Shown here: positions 7,620-17,163 of the stretch, in pieces
How positions within the stretch are numbered: position 1 is the stretch's first letter
Layout: every line of letters begins with the position of its first letter
Virus record (IMG/VR): IMGVR_UViG_3300025671_006770
Location: 1 to 20,237 of that record
Length of the DNA: 20,237 nt
Direction: 5' to 3' (one strand)
Origin: a virus
Translations under genes and position numbers: made by a program
The notes under the pieces: generated by a model
What the model was told of the DNA's origin: nothing
Seen by the model: the letters and a program-made list of their open reading frames with translations, nothing else
Databases searched by the model: none

Positions 7620-8057
7620 TTAAGTAAGAGTAAGGATACCGTTGGTTCCAATGTCGATAGTGAAGGTGTCACCATCGTTCAGTGTAAGGCTTGAGCCATA
7701 GTCATAGTAGCCAATGATAGGATCAGCAGGAGAGGTAGGCGTATCGTTATAAATAACGACATATCTAAATGCTGCTGCAGATCCACCAGATGCCGTGATT
7801 GTAAGGTCATCTGCTGATAGTTTGTATGTGCCACTTGTTTGTGTAGATGTTACGTTTGCCAAGGTGGGTGCTGAACCACCTATGTTGGTGTACGCAATTT
7901 CTGTGATGTTTGCTAAAACACCATTACCATCTGCTGTAGCATCTGTACCTGCAGTTGGGTCTGTGTTTGACAACGCAACCTTTAGCGTGTCACTGTCGAG
8001 GTCCATAGCGTTAGCTAAATTGACCACGAAGTCATTTACTTTCGTAAAACTTGCCAT
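7620..8057 (-). CDS. Small virion-associated protein
   Basis: The 145-residue protein begins MASFTKVNDFVVNLANAM with a following L-K-V-A-L-S-N-T-D-P. I recall this N-terminus from small structural proteins of other tailed phages. The C-terminal half has F-R-Y-V-V-I-Y-N-D-T and the ending D-G-D-T-F-T-I-D, both consistent with beta strands. The fold and exact role are unknown; it could be a minor head-tail or decoration protein. It follows the portal gene by 5 bases and precedes the YadA-like fibre by 10. The Shine-Dalgarno is weak (GTGAG), so translation may rely on coupling to the portal gene. Confidence 0.75.
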   Translation of the reverse strand: MASFTKVNDFVVNLANAMDLDSDTLKVALSNTDPTAGTDATADGNGVLANITEIAYTNIGGSAPTLANVTSTQTSGTYKLSADDLTITASGGSAAAFRYVVIYNDTPTSPADPIIGYYDYGSSLTLNDGDTFTIDIGTNGILTLT

Positions 8058-8062
8058 TTTGT

Positions 8063-9370
8063 TTACTCACTTTTCTTTGGTGGTAGCTCCGCATTAGCTA
8101 ACAGAGCATTTACAATGTCATCCTGATCACTCAGGTCTATGTTAGCGCCATTCAAGTTACGTAGGTAACTACCAAGTTCTCTCAGGTCATGTGGCGCTAC
8201 ATCACCTGCACATATCTTTGGCATGAGGTCAAAGTTAAGACCGTTGATATGCCAAAGTGGTTCAACTAACTGCTTATTCAGTACATCAAAAATAGAATTA
8301 ATATAGCTTTCCATAGAGCGTAGGAATAAGTCAGTTTTAGATTTGCTTAACGCATAAGAGCCATTCGCCCCTGCACCCAACATCAAGAACTCAGCCATAA
8401 CGCTCCTAGCAATATCGTGCTGATAGCGGCTGATGATAGGATTGATATCAATGTTGCGAGAGCCATTACTTGTAATAAGCTCAATATCGACAATCCTTTG
8501 GTTGGTTGGTTTTCCATCTATATCTCTATATACATCAGAGGGCAACAAAGCATAGCCTTGCTCATTGAACTTAAGGTCTCTTAGGATCTTCTCCATCTGA
8601 CCACGTACTGATACTTGATCAGCAGTTGCATCAGGAGAAAGATACTCTGCAGCAATCCTTCCAATAGGAACACCATGAAGCTCTCTCTCAACAGCTATGG
8701 CTTCCACACTCTGAAAGTTCTTTAGGTACTGATATGAAGTATAAGCGTTCCGTAAGATAGAACGACCAGAAGGGTCATTATTTATACTTGTTGTTTTATA
8801 GTGCAACAACTTATTAATTGGAATATAGGTAGTTTTAAGACCGTAGTTCTGCTCTTGCTTTACACCTAATACATCCCCTGTTGTTTTATCAACATCAAAC
8901 TCTTCTATGGTCCACTGCGCCCTAGAAGCCAGCTTCCTTACGCCTATCCTACCATCAGAATATCTGCTGTAAGATTTAGGGTCTTCTGTTCTAGGTCCAC
9001 GTCTACGTTTATAGACCACCTCAAACAAAGAAAACCCAAACGTCAAATGCGAAAGGGCTTCTGCAATATGATCATCAAGAGAATGTTCCATGTCCTTTAG
9101 GACACCTTCGACAAACTCTGCTTCTTTTCTACCTGCTGCTGTATCTTTAGCTGGTTCAACATAATAATCTACATCACGTAGAACCTGCTCTGTGGCGTAC
9201 ATAATTGCGCCAATAGTGCTATCATTGTCTCGCATCTCACGAAACTTATTGATAGCCTTCTTACCTTTGATCTCTTGCAGAAACTCATCTGCACGAATAG
9301 TACCATTGCGGGTCTGTTCCCCACCTTGGCCTAACTCTAGTTTACCTAGCTGTTCACTAATCTTCTTCAT
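8063..9370 (-). CDS. Phage portal protein (Mu gp29 / DUF935-like)
   Basis: The 435-residue protein fits a portal protein, the dodecameric channel at one head vertex through which DNA enters and leaves. Support: the early segment M-R-D-N-D-S-T-I-G-A-I-M-Y-A, the central L-A-S-R-A-Q-W-T-I-E-E-F-D, the stem-region pattern K-L-L-H-Y-K-T followed by G-R-S-I-L-R-N-A-Y, and the helical E-R-E-L-H-G-V-P-I-G-R. These resemble the Mu gp29 / DUF935 type, whose usual length is a little greater. The gene lies directly after the large terminase: the terminase stop and this ATG are adjacent with no spacer. No head protease, scaffold or major capsid gene follows within the window, which is unusual. Confidence 0.85.
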   Translation of the reverse strand: MKKISEQLGKLELGQGGEQTRNGTIRADEFLQEIKGKKAINKFREMRDNDSTIGAIMYATEQVLRDVDYYVEPAKDTAAGRKEAEFVEGVLKDMEHSLDDHIAEALSHLTFGFSLFEVVYKRRRGPRTEDPKSYSRYSDGRIGVRKLASRAQWTIEEFDVDKTTGDVLGVKQEQNYGLKTTYIPINKLLHYKTTSINNDPSGRSILRNAYTSYQYLKNFQSVEAIAVERELHGVPIGRIAAEYLSPDATADQVSVRGQMEKILRDLKFNEQGYALLPSDVYRDIDGKPTNQRIVDIELITSNGSRNIDINPIISRYQHDIARSVMAEFLMLGAGANGSYALSKSKTDLFLRSMESYINSIFDVLNKQLVEPLWHINGLNFDLMPKICAGDVAPHDLRELGSYLRNLNGANIDLSDQDDIVNALLANAELPPKKSE

Positions 9371-10720
9371 TTAGGCCACTAAACCTTTTGCGCTAGAGTA
9401 AGCAAGTCTTAAGGTAGGGGTTGGATTACCGTGGTGCATTAGGTCGGTCAATGCCCACACGCAAGCGTCTAACCTATCGGGAGATCCCAGAGAACCTAAA
9501 GGCTCCCAAGTTCTCATTTGCGTTTCCAACTCGTCAAGACCTTTAACATGCTTGACTTTATGTTTTTCATAGAGTGCAGATATAGGTTCAGCCCTAGCCA
9601 TTTTTCCTCGACTAGCATGTACAAGGCGAATAGGAACTGTTTCATCTTCTGCTTCAAGTGTCCTACGGACCATTTCACCGCCTTGGTTCCTTTCGGCAAC
9701 AATACGATCCGCACTATACTCCCTGTACAACGAGATAGCCTTCGCTGCCCATTGTTGAGGGCTAAATCTGTCCGTGGCATCTTCAAGTACGTATCCAATC
9801 CCGTTTACATCTACACCAGCAACAATAATACCAGTCATGTCAGATTCTGTCTTAGCTGTTACAGCAGGGTCTACAGCAACAACAATACGATTGAGTTCTG
9901 GTACTTCACTTCTTTCAATGGTACACTCGTCAAGCATTTCTGTTGTCCAGAGTGCGCCATCAGCTTCTTCCAATATCTCAGCATAAAGTTCCTGTCGCCC
10001 TAACCTTGTTCCTTCATATTCTTTTCTAACTGTATCAAGGAATGGCTTTGCCAAGTTGTCTACGTTATCAAAGGTAGATCCTCTGGTAATGTAGCTATCA
10101 GGAGAAGCAATTAAGCCCCTCATCAATTTGGTGGGCTTTGGTGTAGTTGTTACCATCACCCTTGGTTTACGACCAAGACGTAAGGTAAATTGTAGCATAT
10201 CCCAAACATCTTGCTGGTTACGCCAAGCTGCAACCTCATCTGCCCAAGCTGCATGAAACTGTGGTCCACGTAAACGCTCTGGGTCTTCTGCAGAATAGAA
10301 CTCTACTTTAGCTCCATTCTCCCACGTTAAGGTTCTATTGGTAGGCGACCAAACAGGAAACCCCATCTTACCGCCTCTGTGTGTCTTGTCACCCTTCCAA
10401 CAAACATTAAGGAAACCAGACTCACCCTCTACCATAACCCTTCTAATATCTGAGTTTGTAGGAGCAACAGCAGCGATACGTTTCTTACCAGATTTAACTT
10501 GCTCTCTAACCCACTCAACGCCAGCCCTAGTCTTTCCCCAACCACGACCAGCAAGAGCTATCCAGACATTCCAATCACCTTCTGGCTCTAGCTGTTCTTG
10601 TCTAGCCCAGAAAGGCCACAGATACCTAAGCTCCTCAGCTTTATTCTGCCCTAGTTCAGAAAGTACCTGTTGTAATTTTTCGGGTGGCAGTGACCTAAGA
10701 TCACTCGACGTTATCTTCAT
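9371..10720 (-). CDS. terL: Terminase large subunit (packaging ATPase-nuclease)
   Basis: This is the motor that pumps DNA into the prohead and cuts it. In the frame numbered from the upstream TTG, Walker A is G61-R-G-W-G-K-T67, Walker B ends at D164-E165 (A-W-A-D-E), and the coupling motif T-T-T-P lies at 194-197. The RNase-H-like nuclease follows with V-A-V-D287-P-A, A-E346-R-N, and the late acidic cluster S-P-D-R-L-D-A (D418, D421). It matches the gp17-like family seen in many alphaproteobacterial phages, at normal length. I chose the ATG at 10720 (449 residues); a TTG three codons upstream at 10729 is possible but has no good Shine-Dalgarno. It overlaps the small terminase by 20 bases. Confidence 0.93.
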   Translation of the reverse strand: MKITSSDLRSLPPEKLQQVLSELGQNKAEELRYLWPFWARQEQLEPEGDWNVWIALAGRGWGKTRAGVEWVREQVKSGKKRIAAVAPTNSDIRRVMVEGESGFLNVCWKGDKTHRGGKMGFPVWSPTNRTLTWENGAKVEFYSAEDPERLRGPQFHAAWADEVAAWRNQQDVWDMLQFTLRLGRKPRVMVTTTPKPTKLMRGLIASPDSYITRGSTFDNVDNLAKPFLDTVRKEYEGTRLGRQELYAEILEEADGALWTTEMLDECTIERSEVPELNRIVVAVDPAVTAKTESDMTGIIVAGVDVNGIGYVLEDATDRFSPQQWAAKAISLYREYSADRIVAERNQGGEMVRRTLEAEDETVPIRLVHASRGKMARAEPISALYEKHKVKHVKGLDELETQMRTWEPLGSLGSPDRLDACVWALTDLMHHGNPTPTLRLAYSSAKGLVA

Positions 10721-11090
10721 TTTTTCCAAGCAACGACATCAAAGTGTTTATCGCACCCTCATCAAGATCGGGGTCTTCAGACTGCTCAACCTCATTAATA
10801 GTTTGAGTAGGAGACCAACCACCCTTAGACCGTAGATAAAACTCAGCAGCTTTAAAATCGCCATCAAGTGCCTGTTGAACAACAATAGCACCAACCTGAC
10901 CTATAATCTCAGCACGTTCTTCTGAGATCATCTGTCCATAGATCTTATAGAGAGTATTCGTAGAACGTGGGGCATTCTGATACTTCTGTATCGACCCCAT
11001 AATGTCTTTCATCGACACACCGTTACGAATACCCTCACGGATCTTCTTTGCGACAACTTCGCTATATGGTAATGCTCTGCTATCAGTCAC
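10701..11090 (-). CDS. terS: Probable terminase small subunit
   Basis: The 129-residue protein lies just upstream of the large terminase and overlaps it, the usual place for the DNA-recognition subunit. A helix-turn-helix-like N-terminal part (about residues 12-52) is followed by an oligomerisation helix (E-R-A-E-I-I-G-Q-V-G-A-I-V-V-Q-Q-A). The segment G-D-F-K-A-A-E-F-Y-L-R-S-K-G-G-W-S at 77-93 is like that of many phage small terminases. The C-terminal tail is acidic, as expected for a region contacting the large subunit. The start is GTG at 11090, with AGGGGG 9 bases upstream. Two perfect hairpins lie immediately 5' of the gene and may be part of its control or of the packaging site. Confidence 0.78.
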   Translation of the reverse strand: MTDSRALPYSEVVAKKIREGIRNGVSMKDIMGSIQKYQNAPRSTNTLYKIYGQMISEERAEIIGQVGAIVVQQALDGDFKAAEFYLRSKGGWSPTQTINEVEQSEDPDLDEGAINTLMSLLGKNEDNVE

Positions 11091-11144: not shown

Positions 11145-11655
11145 CCATTGTTAAAATTCCCCAAGTGCATCGGCATGACTGTCTCTCAAAACAACAATAC
11201 CCTAAAGATTTGTCATGGTTGACTTGGGAAAACCCTACTTAAGTATTATACTTAAGTTTATGGGATATATTATATATTAATATATATCCCATTTACTATA
11301 GTTTATATACTTAAGTATATCTCTTATGTATATATACAGGCATTTTTTGGGATTTTAGACACAATTTTTACAACTTTTTTATAAGTTATTGATAACAAAC
11401 GAATCTTTTTTGTACTTTTTTTTGTTTTCGGATATGGGGTGGGTAACGCTCGGATAGCCGAATCACCCGTAGGAATATGGGGGGCCCCAACTTGGGTATG
11501 TCAAGGGGGCAAAAGGATAGGTTGACAAACGAGAAATATATACGCTCGGATAGCGAATCGGCTACCATCTAGCAGGTTTATTTCACAAGTATAATTTGAC
11601 CAGATAGTAAAAGATTGACCAAACGATCAAATAATAACGTATTGAAACAATAAAC
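11145..11655. other. Non-coding region between the late unit and the small-gene unit
   Basis: No convincing gene is found in these ~510 bases. Contents: the AT-rich palindrome cluster; a C/G-rich part with GGGGCCCC (11481-11488) and the 11-base palindrome CCCAACTTGGG (11486-11496); two copies of ACGCTCGGATAG (11446-11457 and 11542-11553), each followed closely by CGAATC; and AAGGATAGGTTGAC at 11513-11526, which recurs in the divergent control region. A TTGACA reads leftward at 11500-11505, but the best -10-like CATATT is 19 bases away, so this is only a weak candidate for the late promoter. Confidence 0.5.
11237..11320. repeat. AT-rich palindrome cluster with ACTTAAGTA boxes
   Basis: Three copies of an ACTTAAGT core lie at 11237-11244, 11250-11257 and 11309-11316. 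The first pair forms a near-perfect 21-base palindrome (11237-11257). The third lies in the perfect 16-base palindrome ATATACTTAAGTATAT (11305-11320). Between them is an 11-bp inverted repeat, ATGGGATATAT/ATATATCCCAT, at 11260-11292. The stretch is nearly pure A+T. It could be a protein-binding array, an easily melted origin element, a late-promoter region, or part of a packaging site. The sequence alone does not decide. Confidence 0.6.
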
Positions 11656-11681
11656 AAAAAAAGGGCCGCACAATGGCGGCC
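11656..11681 (-). terminator. Rho-independent terminator of the 13030-11710 unit
   Basis: Read on the minus strand, a GGCCGC/GCGGCC stem (six GC-rich pairs, 6-base loop) is followed directly by CC and seven T. It lies about 30 bases after the stop of the cysteine-rich gene. This is a textbook intrinsic terminator. It separates the small-gene unit from the terminase unit, so the late unit must have its own promoter between about 11655 and 11090. Confidence 0.85.
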
Positions 11682-11709
11682 TAGTTGGGGGAGTCAACTG
11701 TAAAAAGGA

Positions 11710-12387
11710 TTAGTGCATTGCAATCTCATTAGCTTTGCGCTTGCTAACACCATGGGCAGGGAATCCGACAATTGTGTCGCGTTGTCTGGCGCATAGTTGA
11801 CAGGTTGCACATGATACATTGTCTTTGATTGTGGCAGGACAGACAACGACCTTACGACCTTTGGGTGTTGTTGTGTTTGTTGTCTGCGTCTCTGGTAGCA
11901 CTACCGTCACAGGAGCGATATCAAGGTCGCACAATGCGTCAGCATGTGCAAGGCTATTGCCTGACAGGTTGACAGTAAACCCTAATTCGTTAAGGCGCTC
12001 AACGACTCTCGCGTTATGCTTATCAGTTAATACATTATAGTGTGTATATGTGAATCCGCGTCTGCCCTTGTTGGCATGTGCTAATTCCTCATTGGCTGCA
12101 GCGTCGAGTCTCTTTCCGTCTCCTGCTAGATCACCAGCTTGGTTATGGCGCCACAGTTGACCAGCCTTAAACCCTTTGACCTTATCTATAAAGGTTGACC
12201 AAGAGTCGCCGCGTAGACCGTCTGTGACCTTTTGCCAATGCAGCGCCAAAGGTCCACCATCTGCATAACATCCGTTTTTCTTAAATGGGCAAGTATCGGG
12301 ACAGGTCTTTGCGCTTGTTGTCGTGACAGGAATCTTGCCTGTTTTGACGTTGTTTGATTTTAGCGTGGTGTGTACTGTATAGGTCAC
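11710..12387 (-). CDS. Cysteine-rich conserved phage protein (DUF7227-like)
   Basis: The 225-residue protein matches a family I recall from many phages and plasmids, with no proven function. Two cysteine sets stand out: C29-x3-C33-x6-C40 with the following Y-A, and C183, C193-x2-C196-x2-C199 near the end. Conserved-looking segments include G-Q-L-W-R-H-N-Q-A-G-D-L (76-87), G-R-R-G-F-T-Y-T-H (108-116), N-L-S-G-N-S-L-A-H-A-D (140-150) and a C-terminal G-F-P-A-H-G. The cysteine pattern would suit an Fe-S or zinc site, and a radical-SAM-like fold is possible but not shown. The start is GTG at 12387, with GGAG 8 bases upstream; it overlaps the preceding 32-residue gene as GTGA. It is the last gene before the terminator. 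Confidence 0.75.
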   Translation of the reverse strand: MTYTVHTTLKSNNVKTGKIPVTTTSAKTCPDTCPFKKNGCYADGGPLALHWQKVTDGLRGDSWSTFIDKVKGFKAGQLWRHNQAGDLAGDGKRLDAAANEELAHANKGRRGFTYTHYNVLTDKHNARVVERLNELGFTVNLSGNSLAHADALCDLDIAPVTVVLPETQTTNTTTPKGRKVVVCPATIKDNVSCATCQLCARQRDTIVGFPAHGVSKRKANEIAMH

Positions 12388-12482
12388 TTCTTTGACTCCT
12401 TTGTCTCTTTTATTAGTTTAATGATAAGCAATTCGAGGTCTCTTTGCAATTCGTCGATATATGGTGTATCTGATAATTTCAT
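12384..12482 (-). CDS. Very small protein, 32 aa
   Basis: A 32-residue reading frame fills the gap between the 55-residue gene and the cysteine-rich gene. It is joined to both by stop/start overlaps (ATGA upstream, GTGA downstream), and a GGGAG ribosome-binding site lies 7 bases before its ATG. The protein, beginning MKLSDTPYIDELQRDLELL, looks like one amphipathic helix with a lysine-rich end. No family is recognised. The exact fit of start, stop and Shine-Dalgarno is the main support. It could alternatively act as a leader that couples translation of the downstream gene. Confidence 0.55.
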   Translation of the reverse strand: MKLSDTPYIDELQRDLELLIIKLIKETKESKK

Positions 12483-12646
12483 TGATAGACTCCCGAATCT
12501 TCACTATTGATCAGTGAATAATGGTATCCTCCGATATTAGGGATAAAGATTCCAAAACCATCTGAATCCAATGACAAACCGTAAGAGAATTTGCCAAGCA
12601 AGAACACAACAAGCAATATTTGAAATTTGAAAATCAGTCTCAGCAT
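12479..12646 (-). CDS. Small secreted or membrane-anchored protein, 55 aa
   Basis: The N-terminus MLRLIFKFQILLVVFLLGKF is a hydrophobic segment after a short basic start, so it may be a signal peptide or a single membrane anchor. Residues 25-55 form a short polar domain rich in Gly, Asp and Ser (L-D-S-D-G-F-G-I-F-I-P-N-I-G-G-Y), which would be outside the inner membrane. GGAG lies 8 bases before the ATG. It overlaps the next gene by 4 bases. No family is recognised; superinfection exclusion or envelope modification are possibilities based only on topology. Confidence 0.6.
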   Translation of the reverse strand: MLRLIFKFQILLVVFLLGKFSYGLSLDSDGFGIFIPNIGGYHYSLINSEDSGVYQ

Positions 12647-12657
12647 TATTTCGACTC

Positions 12658-12801
12658 CTATACCGATAAACCATAGGCCAAAACCACAAGGCCAAAGATT
12701 GAGAATGAAAACAAGATTCCAACCATAACAGATTCAACGATAGTGCGATTGCGGCGTGCTATCTTGCGGCTTTTAATGCTTGACCTATTTCTACGTGACA
12801 T
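12658..12801 (-). CDS. Small basic single-TM protein, 47 aa
   Basis: The first 20 residues are strongly basic (MSRRNRSSIKSRKIARRNRT). A hydrophobic helix V-M-V-G-I-L-F-S-F-S-I-F-G-L-V-V-L-A-Y follows at about residues 25-43. The topology suggests an inner-membrane protein with its basic tail in the cytoplasm. The Shine-Dalgarno GGAG sits 7 bases before the ATG. The stop TAG runs into the GGAG of the next gene. No family is recognised. A holin-like or regulatory membrane role is conceivable but not supported by any motif. Confidence 0.6.
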   Translation of the reverse strand: MSRRNRSSIKSRKIARRNRTIVESVMVGILFSFSIFGLVVLAYGLSV

Positions 12802-12855
12802 ATCCGACTCCGTTTGTTTTGTTGTTCCGATAACCTTTTATAGGCTGATTCGGTA

Positions 12856-12872
12856 GGGGGAGTCAATCCCCC
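12856..12872. other. GGGGGA/TCCCCC hairpin at the end of the 55-aa gene
   Basis: A 6-bp G/C stem with a 5-base loop spans the stop codon of the first small gene (12863-12865). On the minus strand it is not followed by a T-tract, so it may attenuate or protect mRNA rather than terminate fully. The string GGGGGAGTCAA also occurs at 11687-11697. Confidence 0.4.
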
Positions 12873-13030
12873 ATTTCGTCAATCCACTCTTTGCATTGTC
12901 TCTTTGTTGGCAGGCTCAATATCCACTCTCCATCACTGTCAATCACTCGCCAATCTAGGCCAGTATTTGCCTCATATCCGTCAACCGTGTATCCTTTGTA
13001 AGTGTAGAGGCTTTGTCCGATACGTTTCAT
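12863..13030 (-). CDS. Small phage protein, 55 aa (first gene of small-gene unit)
   Basis: This is the first gene of the leftward small-gene unit. Its ATG follows GGAGTC with an A-rich spacer. The protein has a Y-T-Y-K-G-Y-T-V segment at residues 9-16, a W-R-V-I-D-S-D-G-E-W-I core at 27-37, and an ending T-K-R-Q-C-K-E-W-I-D-E. It is soluble and without a signal peptide. It resembles in layout the 59-residue protein encoded on the other side of the control region (T-Y-K-G-H-S-I at the start, C-K-E-Y-V-D at the end), so the two may be distant paralogues. Function unknown. Confidence 0.65.
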   Translation of the reverse strand: MKRIGQSLYTYKGYTVDGYEANTGLDWRVIDSDGEWILSLPTKRQCKEWIDEMGD

Positions 13031-13093
13031 TTTTGACTCCGTTTGTTGTCGTTTCTATGCATTATATATGCACCGATTCGCAGCAGATGTAAA

Positions 13094-13131
13094 CTATCCT
13101 GAAGTATAATTTTATATATCTTGAAGGATAG
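13094..13131. repeat. Imperfect inverted repeat around an AT core
   Basis: CTATCCTGAA at 13094-13103 pairs with TTGAAGGATAG at 13121-13131 (one-base bulge), enclosing an A+T-rich loop. It sits between the leftward -10-like box and the rightward -35-like box, an operator-like position. The right arm is part of the AAGGATAGGTTGAC string also present at 11513-11526. Confidence 0.5.
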
Positions 13132-13276
13132 GTTGACGCAAGTGTCCGAATCAGTGTATTCTGGAACAAATAGAGCGCAAAGCGCCGAATCGGTGGAGTC
13201 AAGGGCTAGTTGTTGAAACGCGGTCGCAAAAGGTGGAAGGATGGGCAGGTGCGAATCAGTTGCAAAAATGTCACAC

Positions 13277-13330
13277 AGAACGAATCAGGAACAAAGAACG
13301 AATCATGAATCTGGAACGAATCAGGAACAC
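13277..13330 (+). repeat. Three 18-bp direct repeats (GAACGAATC iterons)
   Basis: Three head-to-tail units of exactly 18 bp lie at 13277-13294, 13295-13312 and 13313-13330. Each begins (A/G)GAACGAATCA; the first and third continue GGAACA. A looser copy of the core, GCGAATCAG, lies at 13252. Each unit holds a CGAATC, hence a GANTC site. The arrangement looks like replication iterons or a tandem operator. Confidence 0.75.
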
Positions 13331-13342
13331 TCGAAAATTTGG

Positions 13343-13452
13343 CCTGACCCCCTCCAGTGGAAATATGGAACCCCCTCCAGTGGAAATTAGGCTTGACCCC
13401 ACCAGTGGAAATATGGTAGACTGATTCGTGAGAGGCCACCAGTGGAAATATA
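13343..13452 (+). repeat. Four spaced copies of the CCAGTGGAAAT motif
   Basis: AGTGG cores start at 13356, 13379, 13404 and 13441, giving spacings of 23, 25 and 37 bases. Each is preceded by a C-rich run (TGACCCCCTCC, ACCCCCTCC, TGACCCCACC, GGCCACC) and followed by AAATATGG, AAATTAGG, AAATATGG or AAATATAG. The last copy ends 17 bases before the first rightward start codon. All copies face right. Candidate roles: phage-specific promoter, iteron set or operator. Further copies occur inside downstream genes. Confidence 0.75.
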
Positions 13453-13468
13453 GAAAGGACCAGCAAAT

Positions 13469-13799: not shown

Positions 13800-13810
13800 G
13801 GAGAATCATA

Positions 13811-16524: not shown

Positions 16525-16691
16525 CAAAAAAACATAGTTTTGGAATCCCATTAAAAGACATCAGACCTATGACTGATGAAGAGAGGCAGAGGGCGACAGA
16601 GAAAAAGGAAACTAACAATGACAGAGCAAGAAATACTAAAAATGTGCAGAAATCTGGCAAAAAAGTACAAAAACAGGCAAGAATACGATGA
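16521..16691 (+). CDS. Small basic protein, 56 aa, overlapping the sigma-like gene
   Basis: The ATG overlaps the previous stop (ATGA) and follows a strong GGAG by 8 bases. The protein begins MTKKHSFGIPLKDIRPMTDE and is then highly basic and polar (E-R-Q-R-A-T-E-K-K-E, K-S-G-K-K-V-Q-K-Q-A-R-I-R), probably disordered or nucleic-acid binding. It overlaps the first 74 bases of the sigma-like gene in another frame, long for this genome. The strong start makes it likely that ribosomes enter here. It could serve mainly to couple translation of the sigma-like gene. Confidence 0.5.
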   Translation: MTKKHSFGIPLKDIRPMTDEERQRATEKKETNNDRARNTKNVQKSGKKVQKQARIR

Positions 16692-17163
16692 TTTGGTATC
16701 TGAGGGGGTTGTTAAGTGTCTTGAGGTTTTGAACAAAGGTGATGCTGATAAGGCAGCACTGAAATCTCATGCTAGGACTGCCATGCAGGATTATTACAAC
16801 CACAAAAGGAAGGTTGTGCAAGTCCCTGTACATGGTCAGGCACACTCTATGTCTAGGCATCAAGAGACAAGTAGCTGGACTGCTATGGCGCTGCAAAAAG
16901 CCTTGTACACCCCTTCAGTGGAAATTAGAGAGGAAATGGCAATGGGTGAATCTCCAGAGACAATTCTGGAGCGTAAACAGTTCATCAGACATGTCTTTAT
17001 GACTGCGTTTAATTGTCTTACTCACGACGAGTGGACAATTATTCGTATGCGGTATTGGGATGGTATGACACAAGATGCTGTAGGTAAGGAGATGTGCCAC
17101 AACCAAAAGTGGGTATCTCGTAGGGAAAAGTCAGCGCTTGAAAAAATCTGTAACAATTTGTGA
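16618..17163 (+). CDS. Phage sigma-70-like transcription factor
   Basis: The 181-residue protein has the two core regions of a minimal sigma-70 factor. Region 2 is at about 15-70: Y-D-D-L-V-S-E-G-V-V-K-C-L-E-V-L, then a helix ending H-K-R-K-V-V-Q-V-P. Region 4 is at about 133-178: L-T-H-D-E-W-T-I-I-R-M-R-Y-W-D-G-M-T-Q-D-A-V-G with the recognition helix H-N-Q-K-W-V-S-R-R-E-K-S-A-L. Regions 1 and 3 are absent, as in ECF-type factors. It probably redirects host RNA polymerase to phage promoters. I chose the ATG at 16618, 8 bases after AAGGA; the frame is open 14 codons further upstream without a better site. An AGTGGAAATTAG motif copy lies inside the gene at 16917. Confidence 0.75.
   Translation: MTEQEILKMCRNLAKKYKNRQEYDDLVSEGVVKCLEVLNKGDADKAALKSHARTAMQDYYNHKRKVVQVPVHGQAHSMSRHQETSSWTAMALQKALYTPSVEIREEMAMGESPETILERKQFIRHVFMTAFNCLTHDEWTIIRMRYWDGMTQDAVGKEMCHNQKWVSRREKSALEKICNNL
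16910..16928 (+). repeat. Dispersed CCCC-x-CAGTGGAAATTAG motif copy
   Basis: Inside the sigma-like gene, a C-run is followed by TTCAGTGGAAATTAG. The part from AGTGG on (AGTGGAAATTAG) is identical to the second copy of the control-region cluster (13379). It encodes T-P-S-V-E-I-R there, between regions 2 and 4. Confidence 0.6.

Follow-up and report, generated by a model that had tools for sequence, protein, structure and literature searches.

In Caulobacter, CcrM methylates GANTC, and GcrA, bound to the methylated site, activates sigma70 promoters (PMC3667746, PMC4287350, PMC7987155). When a promoter is fully methylated, GcrA protects it from −35 to −10, and mutation of the GAnTC cuts promoter activity by 60–80% (PMC3667746). 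A separate temporal class comprises the promoters in which GANTC lies between −10 and −35 (PMC4287350), and activation by GcrA has been attributed to the extended motifs YGAKTCK/YGAKTCG (PMC7987155). Caulobacter GcrA peaks average 1.8 GANTC per kb, against 0.6 in random regions (PMC3667746, PMC4287350, PMC7987155). Here I describe an island of GANTC sites at positions 11401–13427 of a complete IMG/VR virus record of 20,237 bases (hereafter the window), which suggests that a phage reads this host cell-cycle methylation mark to control its first genes.

The TerL protein of the window is 69% identical, over 99%, to that of CRP-6 (L082 in the locus labels), the closest isolate, a podovirus infecting the Roseobacter RCA strain FZCC0042 and member of a marine phage group reported to be widespread in ocean viromes (PMC6918029). 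Packaging and replication genes in common with CRP-6 bear out that the window is of the CRP-6 type, and such genes are common to the relatives discussed below.

GANTC counts in and around the island

An initial annotation of the window had reported 22 GANTC between 12394 and 13427 and 11 in the control region, with none in the portal-gene stretch 8041–9000 and one in 10001–11000. The recount is exact for both totals, and finds no site in 8001–9000 and one in 10001–11000. The richest 1,034-bp stretch holds 22 sites, where 20,000 random placements of 51 sites gave at most 13 and 300 Markov-3 sequences at most 11. The cluster is real and far beyond chance, but it is wider than was first annotated, with 32 sites in 11401–13427 (7.7 expected over 11380–13430, about 4-fold) and a thinner tail to the right, to about 14965. 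The island and its parts are as follows.

11401–13427: GANTC island, 32 sites, covering the terS leader, the leftward early genes and the control region
11401–11695: terS leader, four GANTC, two of them extended (11460, 11555), with similar sites in CRP-6
11710–12387, minus strand: leftward early gene of the DUF7227 family (PF23872)
12479–12646, minus strand: leftward small protein, 55 amino acids, with an N-terminal hydrophobic stretch
12658–12801, minus strand: leftward small putative membrane protein, 47 amino acids, with a GGAGTC ribosome site at 12806
12863–13030, minus strand: leftward small protein, 55 amino acids, with a GGAGTC ribosome site at 13035
13031–13468: divergent control region, 11 GANTC (25 per kb), eight of them in the extended motif CGAMTCR/YGAKTCG

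By the criterion of the initial annotation, a total matching expectation would refute the cluster. The window does hold 51 sites against 53.3 expected, but as a test this count is misleading, because the island and the avoidance outside it (19 sites against 61 expected, ×0.31) cancel each other; a matching total can thus mask strong enrichment together with strong avoidance. Nor are the GGAGTC ribosome sites and the 18-bp repeats the whole cause, as had also been considered: once their 4 + 4 sites are subtracted from 12394–13427, 14 remain against 2.7 expected (P ∼1e-6). All four centre bases occur in the sites, as expected for an enzyme indifferent to the central base.

Since the island starts just upstream of terS, with leader sites at 11460 and 11555 that have counterparts in CRP-6, it might make terminase cleavage CcrM-dependent, in the manner of methylation-gated packaging in P1. 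However, the methylated P1 pac site is short, and the terS leader, at ∼6 GANTC per kb, is the sparsest part of the island, the densest being the control region 2 kb away, which makes a packaging role very improbable.

To the right of the island, the GANTC at 13803, 14263, 16512 and 18533, several of the few found there, lie at ribosome sites (GGAGAATC, GGAGAGTC) just 5′ of start codons. Elsewhere in the window, positions 2–2023 of the minus strand hold an open reading frame of at least 674 amino acids with degenerate GSFTLTGQDV-type repeats, which runs off the record, and 16576–17163 encode a sigma-70-like protein with region 4 and a weak region 2; it has relatives in other CRP-6-type phages and is possibly a later-stage sigma factor. 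No Rfam families or tRNAs were found in the window.

Selection on GANTC and its conservation

Selection targets GANTC itself, in coding and control DNA alike. In each of six islands, no other of the 16 N-centred palindromes is as enriched as GANTC, which is also among the most avoided outside the islands of the same six phages. Over 23 phages its inside-to-outside ratio is 12.3 and that of the next palindrome 3.7, with an island mask that is itself defined by GANTC density. When codons were shuffled with protein and codon usage fixed, the leftward genes of the window, CRP-6 and the relative L002 showed an excess of GANTC (z +2.6, +5.2 and +8.2), these genes belonging to the DUF7227 family in the window and to the GP88 family in the other two. 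The other genes of the window and CRP-6 gave z −5.6 and −7.8, and the same shuffles rank GANTC top of the 16 palindromes in leftward genes and most avoided in the others. Selection for a 5-bp methylation site can thus reach synonymous positions in phage coding sequence. Simulations, palindrome ranks and codon shuffles all uphold the cluster and the late-gene avoidance proposed initially. The avoidance, however, is not peculiar to this phage type, since other RCA-host phages have no island and low GANTC overall (CRP-345 and CRP-5 complete, CRP-1 and CRP-7 over their first 50 kb).

Individual sites are also retained. Between GP88 orthologues with 73% nucleotide identity, 68% of GANTC are shared, against 27% of control palindromes; at larger distance the sites turn over while their density stays. 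The DUF7227 gene has six GANTC in the window and zero in its CRP-345 homologue.

These results bear on the view that the island has no function and was acquired recently, the avoidance of GANTC that restriction drives having been relaxed in it. In its favour, the otherwise avoided CCNGG occurs at the expected rate within the CRP-6 island. Relaxation, however, predicts expected counts rather than 3 to 6 times more; CCNGG, which is likewise avoided, is not enriched inside islands and is still avoided in most of them (pooled observed/expected 0.17); GANTC is conserved beyond the control palindromes; and the codon-shuffle excess disfavours relaxation as well. I consider this the least probable of the explanations weighed here. 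CCNGG itself is absent from all 20,237 bases of the window and occurs only 12 times in CRP-6, 9 of these in the island, a scarcity suggesting that another target of restriction or methylation is avoided as well.

In CRP-6, 38 of 69 GANTC lie within 2.5 kb of a 45 kb genome, and the island is kept in CRP-6-type phages although the leftward gene families differ. Islands contain 32–59 sites each. Multiplied by many genome copies, such numbers could by simple reasoning rival the sites of the host, and the island might then titrate host CcrM or GcrA and upset the host cell cycle once phage genomes accumulate; I regard this as improbable.

Many relatives chosen by TerL alone have a dense block 0.5–4 kb upstream of TerL, and others have none. 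On a TerL tree, in which some rows come from motif searches and are hence biased towards having the block, GANTC density is bimodal, at ≥10 or ≤6 sites per kb, and changes at least five times, so that relatives are nearly all-or-none for the block. Three island-free relatives that were inspected (L041, L042 and L066) have a short leftward region and a different early module. The cleanest contrast is L075, a natural site-free sibling. Its packaging-gene region is 90–95% identical in DNA to those of the island-bearing L070 and L073, yet its 5.3-kb contig (1–5314) contains four GANTC. The TTGCAAAAATGTCAC and CCAGTGGAAAT repeats are still present, as is a GAAC-repeat array, in which the unit is GAACAAATC where the array of the window has the GANTC-bearing GAACGAATCAGGAACAAA.

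Extended motifs and predicted promoters

The sites of the control region differ in kind from those in coding sequence. Across three phages, the extended GcrA motif accounts for 29 of 40 control-region sites and 2 of 60 leftward coding sites, a test that is inflated because tandem-array sites are not independent; in CRP-6, whose array differs, 8 of 10 control-region sites are extended. Control-region sites are mostly CGAATCR/YGATTCG. Three repeated or conserved elements lie within this region of the window.

13253–13277, plus strand: conserved element CGAATCAGTTGCAAAAATGTCACAC, several copies in CRP-6
13275–13334, plus strand: 18-bp tandem array of GAACGAATCAGGAACAAA, four GANTC, more units in L002
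13351–13455, plus strand: CCAGTGGAAATATGG in four copies, with similar copies in the island-free L075 too

The CRP-6 control region (L082:44500–44740) has many copies of TTGCARAAATGTCAC, of which the window has one, a putative iteron or operator.

The arrays allow two other explanations. The island might be the replication origin of the phage, with hemimethylated GANTC and the iteron-like CGAATCR array timing or limiting initiation, the part played by GATC clusters at E. coli oriC. GANTC is raised around the origin in four alphaproteobacterial orders (PMC9836097), the tandem 18-bp array adjoins a second repeat family, and in CRP-6 the control region is where the cumulative GC skew takes a turn. 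This turn, however, coincides with a switch in gene orientation and is therefore confounded, the sites spread over 1–2 kb of coding sequence, and CRP-6-type phages have their own primase-helicase and DNA polymerase, so that a need for an oriC-like element is not evident. An origin seems unlikely. Alternatively, the sites could be operators of a phage-encoded CGAATCR-binding regulator, the match to CcrM and GcrA being incidental. Tandem arrays and extended-motif sites do resemble operators, and the phage encodes sigma-like and ParB-like proteins. Against this, coding sites are enriched with any centre and only 2 of 60 are extended, a pattern that a CGAATCR-binding protein would not select, and such a regulator appears quite unlikely.

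Four promoters with GANTC in or next to their core are predicted in the window.

13133–13162, plus strand: predicted rightward promoter TTGACG-N18-TATTCT, its spacer containing CGAATCAG; L004 and L207 retain the site and the boxes
13393–13427, plus strand: predicted promoter of the rightward operon, TTGACC-N18-TAGACT adjoining GATTCG
13061–13093, minus strand: weaker predicted leftward promoter TTTACA...CGAATCGG...TATAAT, spacer of 21 nucleotides to TATAAT or 19 to the overlapping TATATA, with TTGACTCTACATGCGAATCAGCGCATATATAG in L004
12837–12866, minus strand: predicted leftward promoter TTGACTCCCCCTACCGAATCAGCCTATAAA, GANTC in the −35 box and in the spacer

Two predicted layouts recur. Layout A, TTGAC(TC)-N-CGAATCR-N-TAnnnT, places GANTC 14–15 bases from the start of the −35 box, and is found at 13133–13162(+), 12837–12866(−) and, more weakly, 13061–13093(−). 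A GANTC at offset 14–15 from TTGAC occurs in 24 cases, against a background of about 8, and in dense zones 58 of 272 TTGAC extend to TTGACTC. In layout B, TTGACC-N17/18-TAGA[CG]T is directly followed by GATTC; it lies 5′ of the rightward operon in the window, CRP-6 and several relatives, the arrangement at 13393–13427 being present in CRP-6 (44853), L004, L068, L070, L110, L206, L208 and L209. A blind scan of 2.9 million viral contigs with a stricter form of layout A (TTGACTC-N6/7-CGAATCR-N2/4-TA) recovered the layout of 12837–12866(−) in more than 25 contigs of CRP-6 type, by gene content, among the matches listed, most matches lying inside islands. At the sequence level, the window thus has both the extended motif YGAKTCG/YGAKTCK of GcrA/CcrM-regulated promoters and GANTC in or adjoining predicted sigma70 core promoters (12837–12866(−), 13133–13162(+) and 13393–13427(+)).

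Other scans were less informative. Scanning genome contigs for the promoter pattern gave, among the matches listed, a result swamped by Clostridia, and a scan of viral contigs for triple CGAATCRG mixed many unrelated contigs among those listed. Four contigs with weak or partial similarity to CRP-6 proteins (L355, L385, L401 and L430) have TTGACTCTAAGGACGAATCGTTGTATATTAAG in common and no island, and may possibly represent another phage group with a putative methylatable promoter.

A possible host-read switch and its relation to known systems

I propose, with a probability of roughly one half, that CRP-6-type roseophages have in the island an early control domain that CcrM can methylate and that host GcrA–sigma70 reads. 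Host CcrM would methylate GANTC on the phage DNA. The control-region sites, in the form CGAATCR/YGATTCG, fall within the spacer or the −35 box of predicted host sigma70 promoters or abut their −10 box, positions at which the methylated sites would recruit GcrA and activate RNA polymerase, as in Caulobacter. In that case early transcription would follow the methylation state. It could be active on methylated DNA and fall as phage replication outpaces re-methylation by CcrM, or be active only at the cell-cycle stage at which CcrM and GcrA are available. Through the plain GANTC of the leftward genes the domain may gain further methyl marks, which is the least certain step.

A bolder form is that the whole 2–3 kb island, coding sequence included, acts in cis as a methylation-density domain, selected down to synonymous codons, for instance as a landing array that concentrates GcrA-bound RNA polymerase on the early genes or as a timer that counts replication, and that lineages acquire or shed it in one piece. 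This I hold to be a tentative idea, with the odds against it.

On the host side, CcrM is expected in the Roseobacter RCA group, although I found no literature on CcrM of the RCA host. GcrA is common rather than universal, being encoded in 245 of 385 alphaproteobacterial genomes. No match to GcrA (PF07750) or to an N6/N4 methylase of the CcrM type (PF01555) was found in CRP-6, CRP-345, the window and eight other viral records, several of them partial, so that any reading of the mark would use host proteins. The pattern TTGAC-N8/9-CGAATCR-N2/4-TANNNT precedes rpsM in one AT-rich alphaproteobacterial genome and rplK in another, genes named by reading translations in two genomes picked for a match from the few AT-rich ones of interest; both encode GcrA, and the layout is therefore compatible with real host promoters.

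Several observations weigh against a host-read switch, besides the non-independence of the array sites. The same promoter pattern occurs in 7 of the 385 genomes, one of them chosen for its match, and its reversed control also in 7, which leaves no class-wide excess. Most array and coding sites have no −10 box at a constant distance, nor was a fixed distance found for all extended sites when all dense viral contigs were pooled. Same-host phages without an island exist, so it is unnecessary for infecting that host. Brevundimonas GcrA shows little preference for the extended motif (PMC7987155), and a review argues that in Rhodobacterales the coupling of methylation to replication may be less important (PMC8116508).

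The open-access literature searched here yielded no account of such an island in any phage, subscription papers being outside the search. Nearest to the island are the promoters regulated by GcrA and CcrM in Caulobacter, where the extended YGAKTCG likewise lies between −35 and −10 or in the −35 box (PMC3667746, PMC4287350, PMC7987155). The phage island differs in its density (∼10–29 sites per kb) and in extending over coding sequence, and its methylation and dependence on GcrA are putative. Clusters of CtrA sites in phages of Alphaproteobacteria, linked to ‘lytic deferment’, similarly gather sites for a host cell-cycle regulator in one control region (PMC9437464), but the mark in the island is GANTC rather than TTAA-N7-TTAA, and the island includes coding sites. 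In its positional analysis, that study reported GcrA sites to be without asymmetry across the phages it covered. Depletion of GANTC is already published for pelagiphages and the NP1 prophage, which avoid the site genome-wide and have a GANTC-methylating host; that work is not known to describe an enriched island such as that of CRP-6-type phages (PMC9516812). Phages with their own CcrM/GcrA system, such as phiCbK and sinorhizobial phages, differ in that none was found in the viral records searched here.

If the proposal is true, the CcrM/GcrA mark would join the short list of host cell-cycle signals that phages read, and the isolates together with the natural site-free relatives (L075 and other RCA phages) make the idea directly testable. 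Its counterpart in gammaproteobacterial phages would be the Dam-dependent switches at the Mu mom promoter and P1 pac, where clusters of a host-type methylation site also gate a phage function; those, however, use Dam and GATC, with few sites in a short region.
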